Assembly (NCBI GenBank): GCA_031271165.1
Contig: JAISWF010000275.1
Location: 1 to 47,949 of the forward strand
Direction: 5' to 3'
Origin: Deltaproteobacteria bacterium
Lineage (GTDB): Bacteria > Desulfobacterota > Desulfarculia > Adiutricales > Adiutricaceae
DNA: 47,949 bases
Made by a program: the position numbers and the translations under genes
Part shown: one piece after another, positions 21,896 to 31,267 of the stretch
Numbering within the stretch: the first letter of the stretch is position 1
How the letters are laid out: every line of letters begins with the position of its first letter
The notes under the pieces: model-generated
Databases searched by the model: none
What the model saw: only the letters and a program-made list of their open reading frames with translations
Told to the model about the DNA's origin: nothing

Positions 21896-22747
21896 TCAAA
21901 CTCCCTTCACCGCAATATCATCACTTCTGGCAAAGGATGATTCCATGATACTCCGAGGATAAATGAAAGGTTTGTTATCAGCGGTGGTTTTGGCCACTTC
22001 TTTACCGTAAAGTTCCTCCAGGATCGGCTCGGTAACCACCTCTCTGGCGTCCCCGGTGGCCAAAACCCGGCCGTCCTTTACAATGGTGGCCTCATCGCAA
22101 AACCACAAGATGTGGTTAGGGTCGTGACAGCATATAACGGCCCCATAACCGGTATTGACTACCTTGCGGATGGTCTGCCATATTCTTATCTGGTTGCGGA
22201 AGTCCAGTGAGGAGGTAGGCTCATCAAGAAATATCAGAGAAGTTTCCTGAGCCAGAGCCCTGGCCACCAGTACCATTTGCCTTTGGCCGCCAGAGAGGTG
22301 GTTGTAGTTCTCTGAAGCCAAGTGCGAAATCCCCACGTCCTGGAGTGAGCTGGCGACAACCAAGCGATCACGGGCGCTCAAGATGGGTTGTCGTCCCATG
22401 TGGGGTGTGCGGCCCATTGACACCATCTCCCTGACGGTAAAGGGGAAGGCTGGGCGGTGCTCTTGGGGGACGTATGCCAACTCGGACGCCAAGCGTTTGG
22501 TTCCAAAGCTTTCAATGGGTTTTCCCCCAAAAAAGATTTTTCCGGCCTGGACGGGTAAAAATCCTAGGCAGCACCTGAAAAGTGTACTCTTGCCGCTCCC
22601 GTTGGGACCAAGGAGCCCTATCAGTCGTCCGGCCTTAATGTCCAAAGAAATTTTGTGTAGGACTTGTTTGGTACCGTAAGAGAAATCCAAACCCTGGATT
22701 TTCATGATGACCTGGCCGCCAGGTTGCAGGGTGTTGTTAGTGGCCAT
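21896..22747 (-). CDS. FecE/BtuD-like iron/cobalamin-type ABC transporter ATP-binding protein
   Basis: Walker A 'GLLGPNGSGKSTLFRCCLG', signature 'NHLSGGQRQMVLVARALAQ', Walker B 'LIFLDEPTSSLD'; start at MATNN gives an 11-bp ATGGCCACTAA overlap with the permease stop (ORF track start is 22813). Confidence 0.93.
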   Translation of the reverse strand: MATNNTLQPGGQVIMKIQGLDFSYGTKQVLHKISLDIKAGRLIGLLGPNGSGKSTLFRCCLGFLPVQAGKIFFGGKPIESFGTKRLASELAYVPQEHRPAFPFTVREMVSMGRTPHMGRQPILSARDRLVVASSLQDVGISHLASENYNHLSGGQRQMVLVARALAQETSLIFLDEPTSSLDFRNQIRIWQTIRKVVNTGYGAVICCHDPNHILWFCDEATIVKDGRVLATGDAREVVTEPILEELYGKEVAKTTADNKPFIYPRSIMESSFARSDDIAVKGV

Positions 22748-23756
22748 AGATGGCTCTCCCGCGTACTTTAAGGAGCCAGACCAGATATGGCGCCCCAATG
22801 ATGGAAGTGACAATACCCAAAGGTATCTCAGCTGAGGTCAATGTTCTGGCGATGGTGTCACAAACCAAAAGGTAGACCGCCCCCAACAAGGCTGAGCCCG
22901 GCACCAGCCAGCGGTGATCTGGTCCCAATATGAGCCTGGCTGCGTGGGGGATCATAAGGCCAACCCAGGCGATGATGCCACAGGTCGAAACGCAGAAGGC
23001 GGCGGCCAGCGTGGCCGCTATGACTATGACAAGGCGGCTGATTTGGGGGTTAAGGCCGAGACTTTTGGCCTCCTCGTCACCTAAGGTGAGGATGTTCAAC
23101 TTCCAGCCATTATAAATCAAAAAGGCCAGGACTGGGAGACCAACCGCCATGTTTAGCTGGACATCATCCCAGGTAGCGTAATATAGGCCCCCCATCATCC
23201 AAAAGGTTATCTCCCTTAACTGGCTGTCGGCGGCCAGGTACTTCATGATCCCCACCAGGGCCGAGAAAAGGGCCCCGATAACGATACCGGAGAGGACCAA
23301 GGCTATCGACGGGGTCTGACCCCGGACAGTGGCGAGAGAGTAGCTTATGAAGACAGCTGCCAGGGCCATCAGGAAGGCCGTTAACTGTCCCTGGGGGAAA
23401 ACCTGGGGGAAGACCATGGACAGAGCTGCACCAGCGGCGGCACCGGAGGAGACTCCCAGTATATACGGCTCCACCAGTGGGTTACGGAAGCAGCCCTGGT
23501 AGGCCGTCCCAGCCACGCCCAAAGACAGGCCGGCTGAAATGGCCAATAAGACTCTGGGGAGTCTTAGTCTCCAGATGATAATCTCGTGGATCTGACTGAA
23601 GTCGCCCATGTTGGTGCCGGTGAGTTTGAAATAAATAATCCCGAAAATCCCACGAAAGCTCACGTCATACTCCCCGGCTATCAAGCTTAGGACGGAGGCC
23701 CCCACCACAAGTATTAACAAAATGATTATGCCTGAAATCCGTCGCTTAAAACCCAT
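22737..23756 (-). CDS. FecCD-family ABC transporter permease
   Basis: 'LRLPRVLLAISAGLSLGVAGTAYQGCFRNPLVEPYILGVSSGAAAGAALSM', 'GLMIPHAARLILGPDHRWLVPGSALLGAVYLLVCDTIART'; start at MGFKRR gives an 11-bp overlap with the upstream gene (ORF track start is 23813). Confidence 0.95.
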   Translation of the reverse strand: MGFKRRISGIIILLILVVGASVLSLIAGEYDVSFRGIFGIIYFKLTGTNMGDFSQIHEIIIWRLRLPRVLLAISAGLSLGVAGTAYQGCFRNPLVEPYILGVSSGAAAGAALSMVFPQVFPQGQLTAFLMALAAVFISYSLATVRGQTPSIALVLSGIVIGALFSALVGIMKYLAADSQLREITFWMMGGLYYATWDDVQLNMAVGLPVLAFLIYNGWKLNILTLGDEEAKSLGLNPQISRLVIVIAATLAAAFCVSTCGIIAWVGLMIPHAARLILGPDHRWLVPGSALLGAVYLLVCDTIARTLTSAEIPLGIVTSIIGAPYLVWLLKVRGRAIYGH

Positions 23757-24972
23757 TGTCGGCCATCCAATCAAGGATTTGGGTGCTCCTGAGACCCTTG
23801 GCGGTGGTTTCATCTATCCCGTAAACTTTTTGGTAAAACTCCAAGGCGTATTGGTAGACGTTGATATCTTTAAAGCGCTCGGGATAGGCCGCCTTGGCCG
23901 TGATGAGGATATCCAAGGGGTACTCAAGGCGGCGGGCACAGTTCATGGGGGTCCAGGGGAGAGCATAGACCCTTTTTTCCGAAATTGCCCTAAGTTCTCT
24001 TAAATCTTTAAAATAGGCGGCCTCATAGAGTTCCCTGGGGGGATGATAGCCGTTGTAGGTCGGAAGGATTATAACGTCGGGGTCAAGGACGTATATTTTC
24101 TCCAAATTTAGAGGCACTCCGTGCCCTTTGGACTGGAAGGCGTTTGTAGCGTTGGCCAGTTTTTCAATCACAAACGATTCCGGTGTGTCTATCCCGAAGG
24201 CCGCCCCCATGGCCCCACTTTTCTTTAAGTCGGGGTTAAGGCCCAGGTACAATACCTTTGACTTGTCTTTATCGGCAATTGTGCTGGTGCGGTCCCGGAC
24301 AAGATCCTCGGCCGATTTTACCAATGAATAAAGCTCAGAGGCCTTATTTTTCATGCCAAAAACATCTCCGACCACCTCGATCTCGTCTTTGAGCGTTTTT
24401 AACTGCGCCTCCCCAAAGTAACCGGGGGCGTAAATGACTACCAAGGGGATTCCAAGGCTGTTTATGGTATCAATGATTGATTGGGCTTTTTCGGTTTCAC
24501 TTTCTCCTACTGTACAATCGCCAATTCTTAAGATCACCAGTTCCGGGGCTGCGTTGGCCAACACCTCGAAGTTGATGACGTCGCCTTGGGGGGAGTTGAA
24601 GCAGGGTAGCTCGTTGAGGGTGGGGTGGAGGTATCTCATGGTGTTTAAGCCCTGATGACTGTATTGGACACCAGAATCAGTTTCAAAGTCGTAATTGTAG
24701 TCCCTTTTAAGGCTCCATGAGCCGATGGCCGAGACCTTGTCTATGACCCCCAGATAGGTCATGATGCCTTCAACCAGACCGTCATCAATGGTGGCGACTT
24801 TTTTGAGGTCAGCTGGGAATGTGACTTTCACACCCCTCATGTCGGAGATGGTCCTGGTAGGGCCGGTGTCGACCGCCAAGGCCGCAGGAGCAAAAAAAAG
24901 TGAACTTAAGCAAAATGAAGTAATAATAGTTATATAGAAGAAAGAATGTCTTATGGGTTTGGATTTTGGCAT
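23746..24972 (-). CDS. FecB/BtuF-type ABC transporter substrate-binding protein
   Basis: Signal peptide, 'RTISDMRGVKVTFPADLKKVATIDDGLVEGIMTYLGVIDKVSAIG', 'LVKSAEDLVRDRTSTIADKDKSKVLYLGL', 'IYVLDPDVIILPTYN'. Confidence 0.92.
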   Translation of the reverse strand: MPKSKPIRHSFFYITIITSFCLSSLFFAPAALAVDTGPTRTISDMRGVKVTFPADLKKVATIDDGLVEGIMTYLGVIDKVSAIGSWSLKRDYNYDFETDSGVQYSHQGLNTMRYLHPTLNELPCFNSPQGDVINFEVLANAAPELVILRIGDCTVGESETEKAQSIIDTINSLGIPLVVIYAPGYFGEAQLKTLKDEIEVVGDVFGMKNKASELYSLVKSAEDLVRDRTSTIADKDKSKVLYLGLNPDLKKSGAMGAAFGIDTPESFVIEKLANATNAFQSKGHGVPLNLEKIYVLDPDVIILPTYNGYHPPRELYEAAYFKDLRELRAISEKRVYALPWTPMNCARRLEYPLDILITAKAAYPERFKDINVYQYALEFYQKVYGIDETTAKGLRSTQILDWMADNGF

Positions 24973-25092: not shown

Positions 25093-27258
25093 TCAATCAA
25101 AGTGGTAGGTGAAACTCAACAGCCCCTCAAAGTAGCGGCCTGGGGCCAGGAATATGTACTGGCCTTCGTATTGAAGATTGGTAAGGTTGGTGCCGACCAG
25201 GGAGGTTGTCATGGTGACCTTGTCGGAAAGCACCCAGTCGCGCCAGATTTTGGCGTTCCACAAATCGACGTTTCGCATGTGATAGTGTAATGTCTCGGCG
25301 TTGGCGTCGTTGTACCACCGCTCATCGGTGTGCTTGTACATGACGGAGGCGTTAATAAGATCTGGTTTGGTAAAAATCAGGCTGTAGGAGCCGACATATT
25401 TCGGTGCATGGGAGAGCTGATTGCCTATATTGCCGCGTGTATTACTTTCTTTGATGACTGAGTTGTTGAAAGTGGCTGAGGCCTTAAATGTCAAGAGGTT
25501 TTTAATCAATTCCTGGCGTAGACTCAGCTCTACCCCCTTGACCTGGACTTTACCCATGTTTCGGCTTTGGGCGAACATGGCACCTGGGCGTCCGGTCAAG
25601 GCTCCGGAGGTGTCACGTACAGAGAAGGTGTACTGGGAATCCTCAATGTTACCGTGGTATAAGGTTACGGAGGCCTCGGTCCCCCAATCGGGCTTATTGA
25701 AGTCTAAACCGAATTCCATCATTGCAGTTTGTTCCGGTTTAAGATCTTGGGAGGTGGCACGGTAGGTGTTGGTGGTATTGTTCCAGCCGGAATAAAACAT
25801 CATCTGTGGATTTTGATAGTAGGCTGTACCATAAGCCGCCCTAATCCCGAAGTAGTCAGTGATATTAAATTTGGCACCTAAACGGTAAGTTATGGTGTCG
25901 AAACGTGCTTCATCAACAAGATTGGCTGGCGTATTTAGCATATTAATATTAGAGTATTTCCATTCATCATATCTTAATCCGCCAATAATTGTAAGTTTAT
26001 CGTTAAACAAACTCAAAGCGTTTTGGAGATAAAAACTAAGCTGGGTCTCCTCCCAGTTGACAAGAGCGGTGATGGCGCCCCGGTTGGCGGGAAGCAGGCT
26101 GACGGTGTAGCTCGGCTCAACGTTTCCCTTGATGTAAGAAACGCCAGCGGTGATGATGTCGTTTTCAATAGGGTGGATGTCTATTTGTAAATCAATGGGA
26201 AACTGGGAGCGGTTACCGGTACCGTAGGCCACCGACCTTTGGACAAGGGTGGGATCGACGACATATTGGTAACTCCAGGCCGGGGAGCCGGGGGCCGGAG
26301 ATACTCCTCTTGGCACGATGGAAAAAGCCTCAATACTCTGATAGCCCATGGCCAGTTTGATTTTTCCCCAATCTCCCAGCAGAGTTGAAGCTCTAAAGGA
26401 AGTCAGCCACTGATCGGCGTTATCCAAACGAATATAGCCTGGTAACCCGCCGTTGAGGTAACGTTGGGCGTAATTTACAGAAAGCGATAAGGAGGTGTGA
26501 TTGTCGTTTTCCCAATCCAGGCGGGTGGCCAGGTAATTGTAACGGAAGTTGTTGTTTTCTATCCCGGCATCAGTAAATCTGTTGCCAGTAAGGTAATAAG
26601 AGCGGAGCATTTCACGGACCGGCAGCATGATGTAACCGTCGGAATAATCCCCTGTGTAGGAAAAATAAAATTTAAAGGTCCCGCTTTGGAGGTTTACGGC
26701 GTTACCGAAGTGGAAATGAGGCCTAACCGTGGACCTCGAACCGTAAGCCAACTCCAGGTTAATGCCCATGCCGCTGTATCCGCTTCTAGTGATCATATTG
26801 ACAACGCCCCCGGCGGCGCTGGCGCCGTAGAGAGCTGAGGAGGGCCCCAAAAGGACATCGACCTGAGCGATGTCATGGGCGTTTATGGTTGAGTTTTGGT
26901 AGGCGTAGATTGGAAGCCCGTCAACCATCTGGATTGAGCGGTTAAGACCGTGGCCCGTGCCGCGCAACTGAATCCAGGACAAACCCCAAGGGTAGAATTC
27001 AGCCACATACACCCCCGGGACCCCTGAGACCATTTCCCCGACAGTGTTGTAGTACCCATGCGGGGACTCCTTTTGCTGCTCTTCGGTGTCGACTGTAAAG
27101 ACGCTGAACGGCACCTTGTCGCGGCTGATATCGGTCTTGGTGGCCGTAACGTCTATCGCCTCCAACCGCCCGCTGTACTCATTGGGGTACTCCTGGGCCA
27201 GGAGCGCAGTGGCAGTCAGAACCACAGTGACAAGGATGGTCAAAGATAATTTGCGCAT
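25093..27258 (-). CDS. TonB-dependent outer membrane receptor
   Basis: Signal peptide, plug ('IDVTATKTDISRDKVPFSVFTVD ... VSGVPGVYVAEFYPWGLSWIQLRGTGHGLNRSIQMVDGLPIYAYQNSTINAHDIAQVDVLLGPSSALYGASAAGGVVNMITRSG'), barrel and C-terminal 'YFEGLLSFTYHFD'. Confidence 0.96.
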   Translation of the reverse strand: MRKLSLTILVTVVLTATALLAQEYPNEYSGRLEAIDVTATKTDISRDKVPFSVFTVDTEEQQKESPHGYYNTVGEMVSGVPGVYVAEFYPWGLSWIQLRGTGHGLNRSIQMVDGLPIYAYQNSTINAHDIAQVDVLLGPSSALYGASAAGGVVNMITRSGYSGMGINLELAYGSRSTVRPHFHFGNAVNLQSGTFKFYFSYTGDYSDGYIMLPVREMLRSYYLTGNRFTDAGIENNNFRYNYLATRLDWENDNHTSLSLSVNYAQRYLNGGLPGYIRLDNADQWLTSFRASTLLGDWGKIKLAMGYQSIEAFSIVPRGVSPAPGSPAWSYQYVVDPTLVQRSVAYGTGNRSQFPIDLQIDIHPIENDIITAGVSYIKGNVEPSYTVSLLPANRGAITALVNWEETQLSFYLQNALSLFNDKLTIIGGLRYDEWKYSNINMLNTPANLVDEARFDTITYRLGAKFNITDYFGIRAAYGTAYYQNPQMMFYSGWNNTTNTYRATSQDLKPEQTAMMEFGLDFNKPDWGTEASVTLYHGNIEDSQYTFSVRDTSGALTGRPGAMFAQSRNMGKVQVKGVELSLRQELIKNLLTFKASATFNNSVIKESNTRGNIGNQLSHAPKYVGSYSLIFTKPDLINASVMYKHTDERWYNDANAETLHYHMRNVDLWNAKIWRDWVLSDKVTMTTSLVGTNLTNLQYEGQYIFLAPGRYFEGLLSFTYHFD

Positions 27259-27276
27259 ACTACCTCCTAATATAGA

Positions 27277-27300
27277 GGTTATCGTAATTGTACGATAACC
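27277..27300. promoter_or_regulatory. perfect palindrome, candidate operator or leader hairpin
   Basis: GGTTATCGTA-ATTG-TACGATAACC, 19 bp upstream of the TonB receptor ATG (27258), next to the GGAGG RBS. Confidence 0.6.
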
Positions 27301-27305
27301 ATGTT

Positions 27306-27371
27306 TTACAAAAAATACACAAATAAAAAGGCCATTTTACAGATTTTATGGATCTGTAAAATGGCCTTCAT
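27306..27371 (-). CDS. candidate leader peptide (uORF) overlapping an attenuator hairpin
   Basis: My translation MKAILQIHKICKMAFLFVYFL*, with AAGG 5 nt upstream of the ATG; spans the terminator-like hairpin. Confidence 0.25.
   Translation of the reverse strand: MKAILQIHKICKMAFLFVYFL
27321..27368 (-). terminator. terminator/attenuator-like hairpin in the TonB receptor leader
   Basis: AAGGCCATTTTACAGA-9 nt-TCTGTAAAATGGCCTT perfect 16-bp arms, followed on the minus strand by TTTTATTT. Confidence 0.65.
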
Positions 27372-27631
27372 GACCTTATGATTGATTTAAAGGCTAATTT
27401 ATTTTTACTATATTATATAGGTACCTGACTAGATAATCCAAATAATAAATGGGTTATTTTAACCCAAAACAGGAGCCTCCCGAGGAAACCCTCCAAAACC
27501 AGACCTGGCTGTTGTGGTGACCAGTTGAGAAATGATAACAGACCTCTGGTCCAGGGGGCTGAATGATTTAGTGGTCTTGGACAGCCGCTTCTCTGGCGGC
27601 TGAGTTAAAAAATATAACAGAGCACGGGTTT

Positions 27632-27660
27632 ATGATACATTAAAATTATTCAAGGTGCAA
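27632..27660 (-). promoter_or_regulatory. candidate sigma70-type promoter for the TonB receptor operon
   Basis: TTGCAC - 17 bp - TATCAT on the minus strand; an alternative TTGGAT-18 bp-TATAAT lies nearer the gene. Confidence 0.35.
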
Positions 27661-28687
27661 GTTTTATTACGTTTGGTCTTTAAAAAAATAAACTAGCCAT
27701 GGCGGTGGGTTAACAGCCAGCTAGAACGAGAATAATCTTGATAAAACCTGACTTTTTTTTCCAGATTTATTTTTTAGATTTGACAGTTTATTTTGGACTA
27801 TTATTACAAGAATATATTACTTAGCTGACCTTGTAAGGCTTGTCTGGGAACGTTTAATTGCTAATATTTATTAAAAGTTTAGAGCAAGGCCTGCCAAGAG
27901 CTGGGCCAGTCCTCTCTCTGCTGTGGTTTTAACCACTTCTTTGCCTGCCAGAATCAATTATCATGGCTGAGGGAACATAGTCCATTTATAAACGTAGGGA
28001 TTTGGATTCTTTTAGGTTTGTGTTTCCAGACTTAACATAAGCCTATGCTGGGCCGAAAAAATCCGCCTCAGCCCCAACACGCTTTTTCGGCGGAAGGATT
28101 TTTAATGTAGCCGTTCACAGGTGATCGAAAAGCCATAATCTGGCCAAGGCTGGAAAAAAGCACCATAATTACCAGCAGATTACCGGAAAAACCCAGATTT
28201 TCAGGCTTTCCATTACCTAACCCGCTATTAAGGCTTCTAGCCTGTAATCCATTCGGGGGGCGAAGCCAGTGACTTCTGAATGGTCGGCCAGAGATAGTTC
28301 AAGAAGGCCACAGGTAAGCCCATAGTCACCGTCACCGCATCTGGGTTGCTCAGCGATGGACAAAGCCCGATATTGGTGCCATTAGTTTAGGTCTTGGTCC
28401 TTAAGCCCAGAGCAAAAAATTATTAACTTCGACCCATCCTGCCTAAAACCAGTTCGTCATCCGGCGGACTGCCCTGCTGCCTCGGGTTGTTCCCCACCCA
28501 GCCTTGCTGCGAAGGGGCTTTGACCTCACTAAACAACCTTGACCGTCGCCCTGACCAAAACAAAATTTTGGGAAAAATTACTTACGCCAGCTCTGCAATC
28601 AGTTGACCATAGATTGGCTTTAAGTTGCGTTAAGTGACAAATTGATGTCAGTTAATCGGCCTCAGGAATTGACAATGGGGTTAAGTC

Positions 28688-31267
28688 TTAGTTTAAGTTA
28701 TTGGAGTCGAACATGTCATTGATGAGGAAGTCTTCTTCCGGAACCGAGGCCGCGACAGTTTCCGAAATCCCCGTCCCGACGGTTCCCGCTTTGTAGCAGA
28801 TCCCAAAAGCCCCGCCCGGTGTCATCTGGGCGTCATCGGGAACGGTAAAGTCAATGATTGGAACATCCTTAAGTACATCACTCATATAATACAAAAATAT
28901 CGGTCCGGCCGCCCGGCCTCCTACTTCGCCGACAGCTCGGGGCTTGAGCTGGTCGGTCCCCATCCAGACGGCGGTGACGTATTCGGGGGTAAAACCCACA
29001 AACCAGGCGTCGGATGCGTCGTTGGTGGTTCCGGTCTTCCCTCCAGCCGGCCGGTTTAAAGGCTTAACTGAGGTACCGGTCCCATGGGCGATCACTCCCC
29101 TGAGCATGGATGTCAGAACGCAGGCCGTGCCGGGGCTGATGGCCTGGTGGAAGACCGGCTCAAAGGAGCCTACTACTTGTCCGTGGCGATCTTCAATCCT
29201 GGTGATATAGCGCGGTTCCACCCGGCGTCCGAGGTTGGGGAAGGCTGAATAGGCGGCGATCATTTCCGGCATGGTCACCCCGTGGGCCCCTAGGGCCACG
29301 GATGGACTATGGGGTAGCTTAGTGGTGATTCCCAGATCGGCGGCCGTTTTATCAAGGGCTTCAAAGCCCATCCGTTGCAAAACTTTAATCGAAATCAGGT
29401 TACGGGAGGCTGTCAGCGCACTGTAGAGGTCCATGGGGCCCAAAAATTTCTGATCGCTGTTGAGCGGCTTCCAGCGGAGCCCGGTTGAGGGATCGTCCAT
29501 TACCACGGGCCCATCGATCATAACTGAGCCGGGGGTGAAACCGTTGTCCATGGCCGCAGTGTAGACGATGGGCTTAAATGAGGAGCCCGGTTGCCGTTGA
29601 CTTTGGGTGGCCCGGTTAAACTGACTTTCTCCAAAGTCTCGGCCTCCGACCATGGCCCTGACGCCGCCGTCAGTCAAATCCATGCTGAGTAAAGCCGCCT
29701 GGACATCGGTGCGCTGCTCAAGGATAAAGGAATAAGTGTTAACATTGGTTCCAGAAGCGATATCCTCAATGGTCGCCTGATGATCGGCCGTCGGGTTGGC
29801 GGAAGAAGCTGGTTCTGGGTCCAGTCTGACCCAGACGACGTCTCCCCGGCTGAGTTGTTTGGCCAGGGCACCTTTGGGCAGAATCCATTCCAAATTCTTT
29901 TTGACGATGTCCCCTTCAAAGCTGCCAACGGCCACGTGCAGAGTTTGGTTATCTTTAACTTTCAGGATAACTGCTTGGTAGAGGCGATCTGGTAAAACAA
30001 TTCCCAAAGACAGCTGGCTGTCAGTCAGCTCAAGGAAGTTCTGGATTTGCTGGTCGCTTTCCAGGTGCAGGATAGGCCCTTTAAAACCTCGGCGTCGAGA
30101 GTATTCCCAGAGGCCTCGGGCGACGGCTGCATCAGCCGCTTTTTGGGCATCAAGATTCAAAGTCGTGTAAACCCGCCAGCCGTCGTTGTAGAGACTATCT
30201 TCGCCTATTCTTTCAGCCAGAATACGTCTGACGTGCTCGGTAAAGTAGGGAGCGGCAATGATGTTGGGATTGGGGTGCTCTCCGACTACGTTTAAAACCT
30301 CAGTGGAGGCCATCTGGGCCTCCTCCATGGTAATAAAACCAACGTTGACCATGCGTTCAAGGACGTGGAGCTGGCGCTTTCTGGCCTCCTCGGGATGTCT
30401 GATTGGATTTTTACCTTCTGGAGATTGAGTAAAGCCTGCTAACATGGCTGCTTCCGCCACTGTGAGCTGTTCTATGTGCTTGTCAAAATATGTCTGGGCC
30501 GCCGCCTCGACTCCATAGGCTCCCAGGCCAAGGTAAATTTGGTTGAGATAAATTTCTAAAATTTGGTCTTTGGATAAAATGGCCTCCAGCCGAATGGCCA
30601 GGATTATTTCCCGGATTTTTCTCTCAATCTTTCTTTCGCTGGTTAGAAGCAAACCCCTGACCACCTGCTGGGTTATAGTTGAGGCCCCTTGAAGTTGATT
30701 GTCGAACAGAGATTTGTAAGCCGCTCGGATGATGGCCGGTGGATCAATGCCTCCGTGCCGGTAGAATTTGGCGTCCTCGGTGGCTAGAAAGGCCTCCCTG
30801 ACTATTAAGGGGATTTCGGAAAGAGGTTTGACTATCCGGCGTTCGTGGCTGTATTCCCCGATAACTTGGCCATCAAGGCTATAAAAATAAGTGACGGTTT
30901 TCGGTTGGTAAAATTTTAAGCTTTCGACACTGGGAAGATTTTGGGAGAAATAAGCATAGGCAATGAATATGACCGTCAGACCGGCGATGATTAGACCTAG
31001 CCCGCCCCAAAAGACTGCCAACCAAAATCGAATCCAAAGACTGCCTGATTTTTTTGGCCGGTTTTTGATTTTGGGGAGTTTGGCCTCAGGTACCATCTGG
31101 CCAGGGGTGGTTTTTTTTAGCCGTCCGTTAGGGCGGGGGGCACTAGGCTCCTCGGACAGCTCATCTAAGCTGATGTCCTGGGCCAACTGTTTGAGTTGTT
31201 CAGTGTCAGAATCATCAAGGTCGGATTGAAAGGGAGGATTTTGATTATTGCTATTCGAATCGGTCAA
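28688..31267 (-). CDS. mrcA: penicillin-binding protein 1A (bifunctional transglycosylase/transpeptidase)
   Basis: GT51 'ATEDAKFYRHGGIDPPAIIRA ... GASTITQQVVRGLLLTSERKIERKIREIILAIRLE', transpeptidase 'RQPGSSFKPIVYTAAMD', 'SRN', 'GGKTGTTNDASDAWFVGFTPEYVTAVWMGTD'. Confidence 0.96.
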   Translation of the reverse strand: MTDSNSNNQNPPFQSDLDDSDTEQLKQLAQDISLDELSEEPSAPRPNGRLKKTTPGQMVPEAKLPKIKNRPKKSGSLWIRFWLAVFWGGLGLIIAGLTVIFIAYAYFSQNLPSVESLKFYQPKTVTYFYSLDGQVIGEYSHERRIVKPLSEIPLIVREAFLATEDAKFYRHGGIDPPAIIRAAYKSLFDNQLQGASTITQQVVRGLLLTSERKIERKIREIILAIRLEAILSKDQILEIYLNQIYLGLGAYGVEAAAQTYFDKHIEQLTVAEAAMLAGFTQSPEGKNPIRHPEEARKRQLHVLERMVNVGFITMEEAQMASTEVLNVVGEHPNPNIIAAPYFTEHVRRILAERIGEDSLYNDGWRVYTTLNLDAQKAADAAVARGLWEYSRRRGFKGPILHLESDQQIQNFLELTDSQLSLGIVLPDRLYQAVILKVKDNQTLHVAVGSFEGDIVKKNLEWILPKGALAKQLSRGDVVWVRLDPEPASSANPTADHQATIEDIASGTNVNTYSFILEQRTDVQAALLSMDLTDGGVRAMVGGRDFGESQFNRATQSQRQPGSSFKPIVYTAAMDNGFTPGSVMIDGPVVMDDPSTGLRWKPLNSDQKFLGPMDLYSALTASRNLISIKVLQRMGFEALDKTAADLGITTKLPHSPSVALGAHGVTMPEMIAAYSAFPNLGRRVEPRYITRIEDRHGQVVGSFEPVFHQAISPGTACVLTSMLRGVIAHGTGTSVKPLNRPAGGKTGTTNDASDAWFVGFTPEYVTAVWMGTDQLKPRAVGEVGGRAAGPIFLYYMSDVLKDVPIIDFTVPDDAQMTPGGAFGICYKAGTVGTGISETVAASVPEEDFLINDMFDSNNLN

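Follow-up and report, generated by a model that had tools for sequence, protein, structure and literature searches.

A conserved tandem-hairpin leader, probably an attenuator of nickel genes, in Desulfobacterota without NikR

Nickel regulation in delta-proteobacteria has been assigned to NikR, a DNA binder that recognizes GTGTTAC-N13/14-GTAACAC and whose regulon includes NikMQO/CbiM, NikK-like, and NikL genes (Rodionov et al., PMC545781). The leader described here has the same targets; it is, however, an RNA element, and the NikR gene is absent from the genomes that carry it. A similar layout is known from the targets of ANTAR antiterminators (EutV, NasR, and AmiR), which likewise consist of two small stem-loops with like loops and a variable linker, the second hairpin overlapping a terminator, so that a factor binding both would antiterminate (PMC3369931). 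The ANTAR targets carry hexaloops with A at position 1 and G at position 4 and belong to nitrogen or ethanolamine genes, whereas the new leader has A-N-G-A-A loops, mostly of five bases, and belongs to nickel genes. The NiCo (czcD) riboswitch (RF02683) is likewise an RNA leader tied to nickel/cobalt homeostasis, but it precedes export rather than uptake genes, and the new leader has neither its four-way junction nor an Rfam match. Guanidine-II (mini-ykkC; RF01068) likewise has two hairpins with like loops; these are closely spaced ACGR tetraloops in front of different genes, and again the new leader has no match in Rfam.

Here, we describe a leader found upstream of a TonB receptor operon in the window, by which we mean the whole 47,949-nt stretch of DNA that was analysed. 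It belongs to a regulatory RNA family that is real and conserved, has a clear gene context, and is apparently unlisted; we found no description of it in Rfam or in the literature searched. We computed its two hairpins, their conserved loops, the overlap with a terminator, the recurrence before nickel genes, and the absence of NikR from its carriers. We put at about two in three (0.68) the probability that this is a transcription-attenuation leader, of a family unlisted in Rfam, that controls the nickel (nickel/cobalt) regulon in NikR-less Desulfobacterota. NikR is missing from about half of the Desulfobacterota sampled, and for at least 26 such genomes the leader offers an RNA-level system. 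It also supplies a list of targets, which comprises uptake systems, outer-membrane receptors, TonB energisers, and CO dehydrogenase, together with candidate factors led by DUF3842.

The leader of the receptor operon in the window

The leader (27258-27660, minus strand) precedes a TonB-dependent receptor of 721 amino acids (25093-27258, minus strand; PF00593 2e-30, PF07715 2.8e-17). The remaining operon genes span 21896-24972 on the same strand and were assigned by Pfam to a Peripla_BP_2 binding protein (23746-24972), a FecCD permease (22737-23813), and an ABC ATPase (21896-22813). A preliminary description of the leader had listed several hairpins, a palindrome, a short open reading frame (ORF), a ribosome-binding site (RBS), and a start codon, all of which are present in the sequence. 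At its upstream end, that description had placed a promoter (27632-27660, minus strand), read from the sequence as TTGCAC (27655-27660), 17 nt, and TATCAT (27632-27637). The hexamers are there and the -10 element is good; the -35 element is weak, with three of six matches, and the site failed a consensus promoter scan, so we refer to it as a candidate promoter.

Downstream of the candidate promoter lies the first hairpin, H1 (27582-27602, minus strand; CAGCCGC-CAGAGAA-GCGGCUG). Its loop ends with GAA and, at 7 nt (CAGAGAA), is longer than usual, and it is located ~200 nt from the second hairpin, H2 (27363-27375, minus strand; GGUC-AUGAA-GGCC). The GGCC 3' arm of H2 doubles as the 5' base of the stem of an intrinsic terminator (27318-27369, minus strand), which combines a 17-18 bp stem (27327-27369) with a U-rich tract. 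The arms of the terminator hairpin (27328-27344 and 27352-27368) are 100% complementary over 17 bp, one more than initially reported, and enclose a 7-nt loop; they are followed by UUUAUUUGUGUAUUUUUUG. The perfect arms and the U-tract noted previously were thus borne out. H2 and the terminator overlap at 27363-27366 and are mutually exclusive, and their isolated folding energies are -4.6 and -23.9 kcal/mol, respectively. The window therefore shows both features of the new family, namely an H2 whose 3' arm opens the terminator and an H1 with a GAA-ending loop. The RBS (TTAGGAGG) and the receptor ATG follow at 27258-27270 (minus strand). A further stem-loop that had been pointed out, GGGUUA/UAACCC (27450-27466, minus strand), is present but was not found conserved.

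As a whole, the leader folds with -116.2 kcal/mol as compared to -84.0 +/- 4.8 kcal/mol in dinucleotide shuffles (z -6.7; 0 of 100 shuffles), and it is enriched in terminator-like sites (8 versus 1.3 expected). The view that it matches no known riboswitch was upheld by an Rfam scan, in which no family reached its gathering score. Scans of the leader at permissive thresholds gave no meaningful matches, and the sole Cobalamin hit lies on the opposite strand and outside the leader. A DNA search of the own genome with the leader returned no repeat copy. The 1.4 kb upstream of the receptor operon (27258-28688) contain no plausible gene, and the leader accounts for only ~400 nt of this stretch.

Conservation of the two hairpins

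We fetched receptor orthologs with their upstream DNA and compared the leaders. A single-protein query of genome contigs found none, while an alignment query gave matches; the viral contigs searched had no matches. The orthologous receptors are 53-56% identical within the family and ~38% within the class, and most of their leaders contain a long intrinsic terminator between the promoter and the start codon. Just 5' of the 5' arm of the terminator there is a motif, GGUCAUGAAGGCC in the window and GGCCAUGAAGGCC, GGCCACGAAGGCC, GGUCAAGAAGGCC, or GGCUAAGAAGGCC elsewhere. In the orthologous leaders of the class and phylum, this motif forms H2, a hairpin of the form GGYC-ANGAA-GRCC. Because its 3' arm is the base of the terminator stem, H2 and the terminator cannot coexist. 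The preliminary description had seen the layout of attenuation in a terminator inside the leader together with an overlapping short ORF. Our comparison supports a leader in which a terminator separates promoter and receptor gene and competes with an upstream element, an arrangement conserved across the phylum.

The orthologous leaders also carry a promoter-proximal hairpin whose loop is of the same type, for example, AAAUCGC-AUGAA-GCGAUUU, UAUCGC-AAGAA-GCGAUA, and CCCUU-AUGAA-AAGGG, and several of them have a TTGACA-type promoter directly upstream of it. H1, the stem at 27582-27602 singled out from the window, thus recurs before orthologous receptors. Loops ending with GAA were found in 28 of 137 perfect hairpins and in 13 of 20 leaders, a count that includes some loops of the terminators themselves, as compared to a mean of 2.6 and a maximum of 7 in 200 shuffles; in the same shuffles, no loop triplet was counted more than 10 times.

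The comparative covariation called for previously was provided by an alignment of 30 leaders (A5), in which 97.5% of the H2 cells are paired and 7 are double-change cells. Compensatory changes lead from GGCC/GGCC to GGUC/GACC and CGCC/GGCG, while the A-N-GAA loop is conserved (ACGAA in 14, AUGAA in 12, and AAGAA in 4 leaders). The hairpin structure is therefore conserved with compensatory changes, and the short upstream ORF is not. Across the 30 H2 and 18 H1 sequences, the loop reads A-N-G-A-A with few hexaloop exceptions. The stems of H1 vary freely yet stay paired, with an invariant A-N-GAA loop; their covariation reached 0.952 versus 0.268 or less when slid, but since the H1 sequences were chosen as hairpins, only the loop and the location count as independent evidence.

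In two receptor leaders, L046 (4930-4994) and L062, the terminator is missing and A-N-GAA hairpins adjoin the RBS, which is possibly a translational version of the switch. At another locus (L015; G049:C1:3155158-3155718), the receptor ortholog is broken by a stop and truncated beside a transposase gene; the R2 model described below found no leader in this genome.

A first MAFFT alignment of 15 leaders was poor at long or odd terminators, and the covariance models were therefore built from a cleaner set and extended by cmsearch. Antisense matches of palindromic terminators were excluded from training. Model R1 comprised H2 and the terminator from eight leaders and was searched in 14 genomes, where many of its weak matches (E above ~0.01) fell within coding sequence and represent noise. 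R2, refined from 30 leaders, was searched in 395 genomes of the phylum with a cut-off of E<=1e-4. It revealed the leader in at least 26 of the 395 Desulfobacterota genomes, from 12 families; as 14 candidates were scored per genome, this count is a lower bound, and the absence of a leader from a genome is not a reliable call.

H1 was not part of R1 or R2. Nevertheless, the 160 nt preceding a match contain an H1-type hairpin with a GAA-ending loop in 13 of 28 untrained R1 matches (0.96 in shuffles, at most 4) and in 9 of 17 new R2 matches (0.77 in shuffles). Roughly one in two of the new copies has no H1 or none that is recognisable. A third model, R3, was built from 35 leaders, none from the family of the window, although these rows had been collected using R2, whose 30 rows included the window. 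Across the 47,949 bases, R3 scored the window site (27318-27377, minus strand) highest, with 31.7 bits and E 3.8e-6, the next site scoring 17.8 bits. It also recovered another ten leaders from the window's family and gave no matches on receptor loci without a leader.

Target genes, NikR, and DUF3842

Models of H2 plus terminator uncovered dozens of additional copies in Desulfobacterota, many of which precede nickel genes. In the 14 genomes, R1 recovered the receptor leaders and gave strong new matches that precede a CbiM-DUF4198 fusion, DUF4198, a NikL-family protein, and a CooC-like ATPase, as well as ExbB/ExbD, other TonB receptors, and a FecCD permease. Another target is a methyltransferase that, in other genomes, is part of the receptor's SBP_5/permease operon; for the SBP_5 protein of this operon, the top NCBIfam model is the nickel-binding NikA type, with a score under the curated cut-off. 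In the 395 genomes, R2 matches again precede DUF4198, CbiM, NikL, and TonB genes. The own genome of the window has a second leader copy (C166:3453-3503) upstream of cooS, which encodes a nickel CO dehydrogenase (TIGR01702, 515 bits), and this leader has an H1 of its own, GAUC-ACGAA-GAUC. Group II intron domains (RF02001 and RF01998; L154:3078-3373, minus strand, C166) lie between this leader and cooS, which indicates that an intron was inserted into that transcription unit.

The leader is also found before non-nickel genes, namely two AraC-type regulators, a DUF3450 protein, and flavin-reductase-like proteins. The AraC-type regulators stand under their own leader copy in two Desulfarculia genomes (L134 and L142). 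In genome G098, a Cobalamin riboswitch (L118:1748-1937, plus strand, 132.9 bits) is divergent to the leader-controlled DUF3450 gene.

NikR_C was detected in 182 of the 395 genomes of the phylum. None of the 26 leader genomes has NikR, as compared to 182 of the 369 others (Fisher 7e-8), DUF3842 is encoded in 25 of the 26 leader genomes (Fisher 1.8e-11), and DUF3842 and NikR occur together in only 8 genomes (1.5e-36); because relatedness is ignored, these tests are optimistic and their P values too small. The 12 leader families and the 57 NikR families are disjoint. In genome G408, a receptor ortholog without the leader is accompanied by NikR.

According to the mechanism that we propose for the attenuation leader, RNA polymerase would start just upstream of H1 and make H1 and later H2. 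As the GGCC 3' arm of H2 forms the bottom of the terminator, the two structures would exclude each other. The default would be termination before the receptor gene, since H2 is by far the weaker of the two structures in isolation. A trans-acting factor that grips H1 and H2 by their A-N-GAA loops would block the terminator and allow the metal-uptake operon to be read; clamping of H2 would give read-through, with H1 serving as a second grip. We infer that binding of the factor decides the outcome and that its signal is nickel status, and for uptake genes the factor would be expected to act when nickel is scarce. The sign of the response is uncertain, because the regulon also includes cooS and CooC-like genes, which fit poorly to a simple rule of "on when nickel is scarce".

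DUF3842, a small protein, was considered as the factor because, at two loci, its gene either neighbours the receptor or has a leader of its own. The gene and a leader are no more than 3 kb apart in 5 of 25 genomes (0.08 expected), although two of the five are identical stretches. Stretches with leader, DUF3842, and FecCD-like/CooC-like genes (L167 and L169/L190; G344 C8 and G433 C164) are identical in genomes placed in two different families, which points to contamination or recent transfer. In one genome with leaders (G014) DUF3842 was not found, and 114 genomes have DUF3842 with no leader among the 14 candidates scored per genome. In family f42, its gene, as judged by reading the locus, stands between parB and cobU-/cobS-like genes. 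AlphaFold predicts a confident Rossmann-like domain (pLDDT 91.6) that has no close structural relative and corresponds to no known RNA-binding fold; a HutP-like fold was not supported. DUF3842 is not named in the literature searched. The protein may bind the RNA as the factor itself, sense the signal and act on that factor, or simply be another member of the nickel toolkit. We only tentatively suggest that it is a nickel-responsive RNA-binding antiterminator that acts via the tandem A-N-GAA hairpins and replaces NikR in much of Desulfobacterota. If true, this would represent tandem-hairpin antitermination with loops unlike ANTAR targets and would give a function to an orphan protein family.

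Competing readings of the leader and the downstream palindrome

The leader might instead be a metal- or metabolite-sensing riboswitch, in which the ligand is bound by the two purine-rich loops themselves, without the need for a protein. Its small conserved RNA core with a strict A-N-GAA loop, common to nickel genes, would suit this reading, and two hairpins with identical loops have a precedent in guanidine-II. We nevertheless regard it as unlikely. H1 and H2 are separated by anything from ~40 to 220 nt, and beyond pairing their stems show no sequence conservation, which fits better with a protein bridging two hairpins. Furthermore, a riboswitch ligand would stabilise H2 and activate expression, the opposite of what is expected for uptake genes, and no Rfam riboswitch matches the leader.

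Control by an ANTAR protein of the EutV/NasR/AmiR type is improbable, despite the likeness in layout, that is, tandem hairpins of which the second overlaps the terminator (PMC3369931). This arrangement was found here, with H1 in about half of the untrained copies, but hexaloops with A1 and G4 are the exception: a few loops (ACAGAA, AGCGAA, AAUGAA, and AUUGAA) fit that pattern, whereas most are A-N-G-A-A pentaloops. Moreover, an ANTAR protein is absent in G000, G001, G002, G012, G098, and G165, all of which have receptor leaders or strong model matches (PF03861 was not found in the last five or in the own genome of the window, which is 81.6% complete), and such proteins are missing in both the window's family and family f42, where leaders are clear. 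PF03861 is present in G042-G044, G047, G048, G055, G069, G106, and G162. With the proteins missing in several carriers and the loops differing, we rejected ANTAR as the general factor, which must be something else. It could still operate in single lineages such as Dethiosulfatarculus. In Dethiosulfatarculus sandiegensis (L042:2978-4230), a sensor-less HisKA_2 kinase and an ANTAR regulator are encoded directly upstream of the receptor operon, possibly a lineage-specific takeover.

The hairpins could also be ordinary terminators that insulate the operons against upstream transcription, with loops that are similar because they favor stable hairpins. Loops such as GGAA, CGAA, and others ending with GAA are indeed common within terminator hairpins and add to the GAA-loop count. 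H1, though, is no terminator and emerged independently of the models, and the tie of the leader to nickel genes and to the absence of NikR is specific, which makes this reading quite improbable.

We give very little weight to recognition of the loops by a base-pairing small RNA or a CsrA-type protein. CsrA recognizes paired hairpins that carry ANGGA loops, and some H1 loops read AGGAA; GGA is, however, absent from the H2 loops AUGAA, ACGAA, and AAGAA.

Least probable of all is ribosome-mediated attenuation through the 21-codon ORF (27306-27371, minus strand), which overlaps the terminator in the window and had been put forward as a functional element: its ATG is present in only 12 of the 30 aligned leaders and absent in 18, the encoded short peptides differ, and, as this ATG is the AUG of the conserved H2 loop AUGAA, we consider the ORF a by-product and rejected it.

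Between the terminator and the RBS lies a perfect 10-bp palindrome (27277-27300, minus strand; arms 27277-27286 and 27291-27300), GGUUAUCGUA-CAAU-UACGAUAACC. The second mini-ORF described previously is merely this palindrome, and no equivalent of either was seen in the orthologous leaders read. The palindrome is a single copy in the own genome, as shown by a pattern search with up to 3 mismatches, and, judging from the leaders compared, it is outside the conserved leader family. Its half-site ATCGTA is similar to the Zur box of Geobacter, TAAATCGTAATnATTACGATTTA (PMC545781), but the spacing differs, the palindrome is absent from the orthologous leaders read, and the own genome has no second copy. 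The palindrome could serve as an operator or as a 5' stabilising hairpin.
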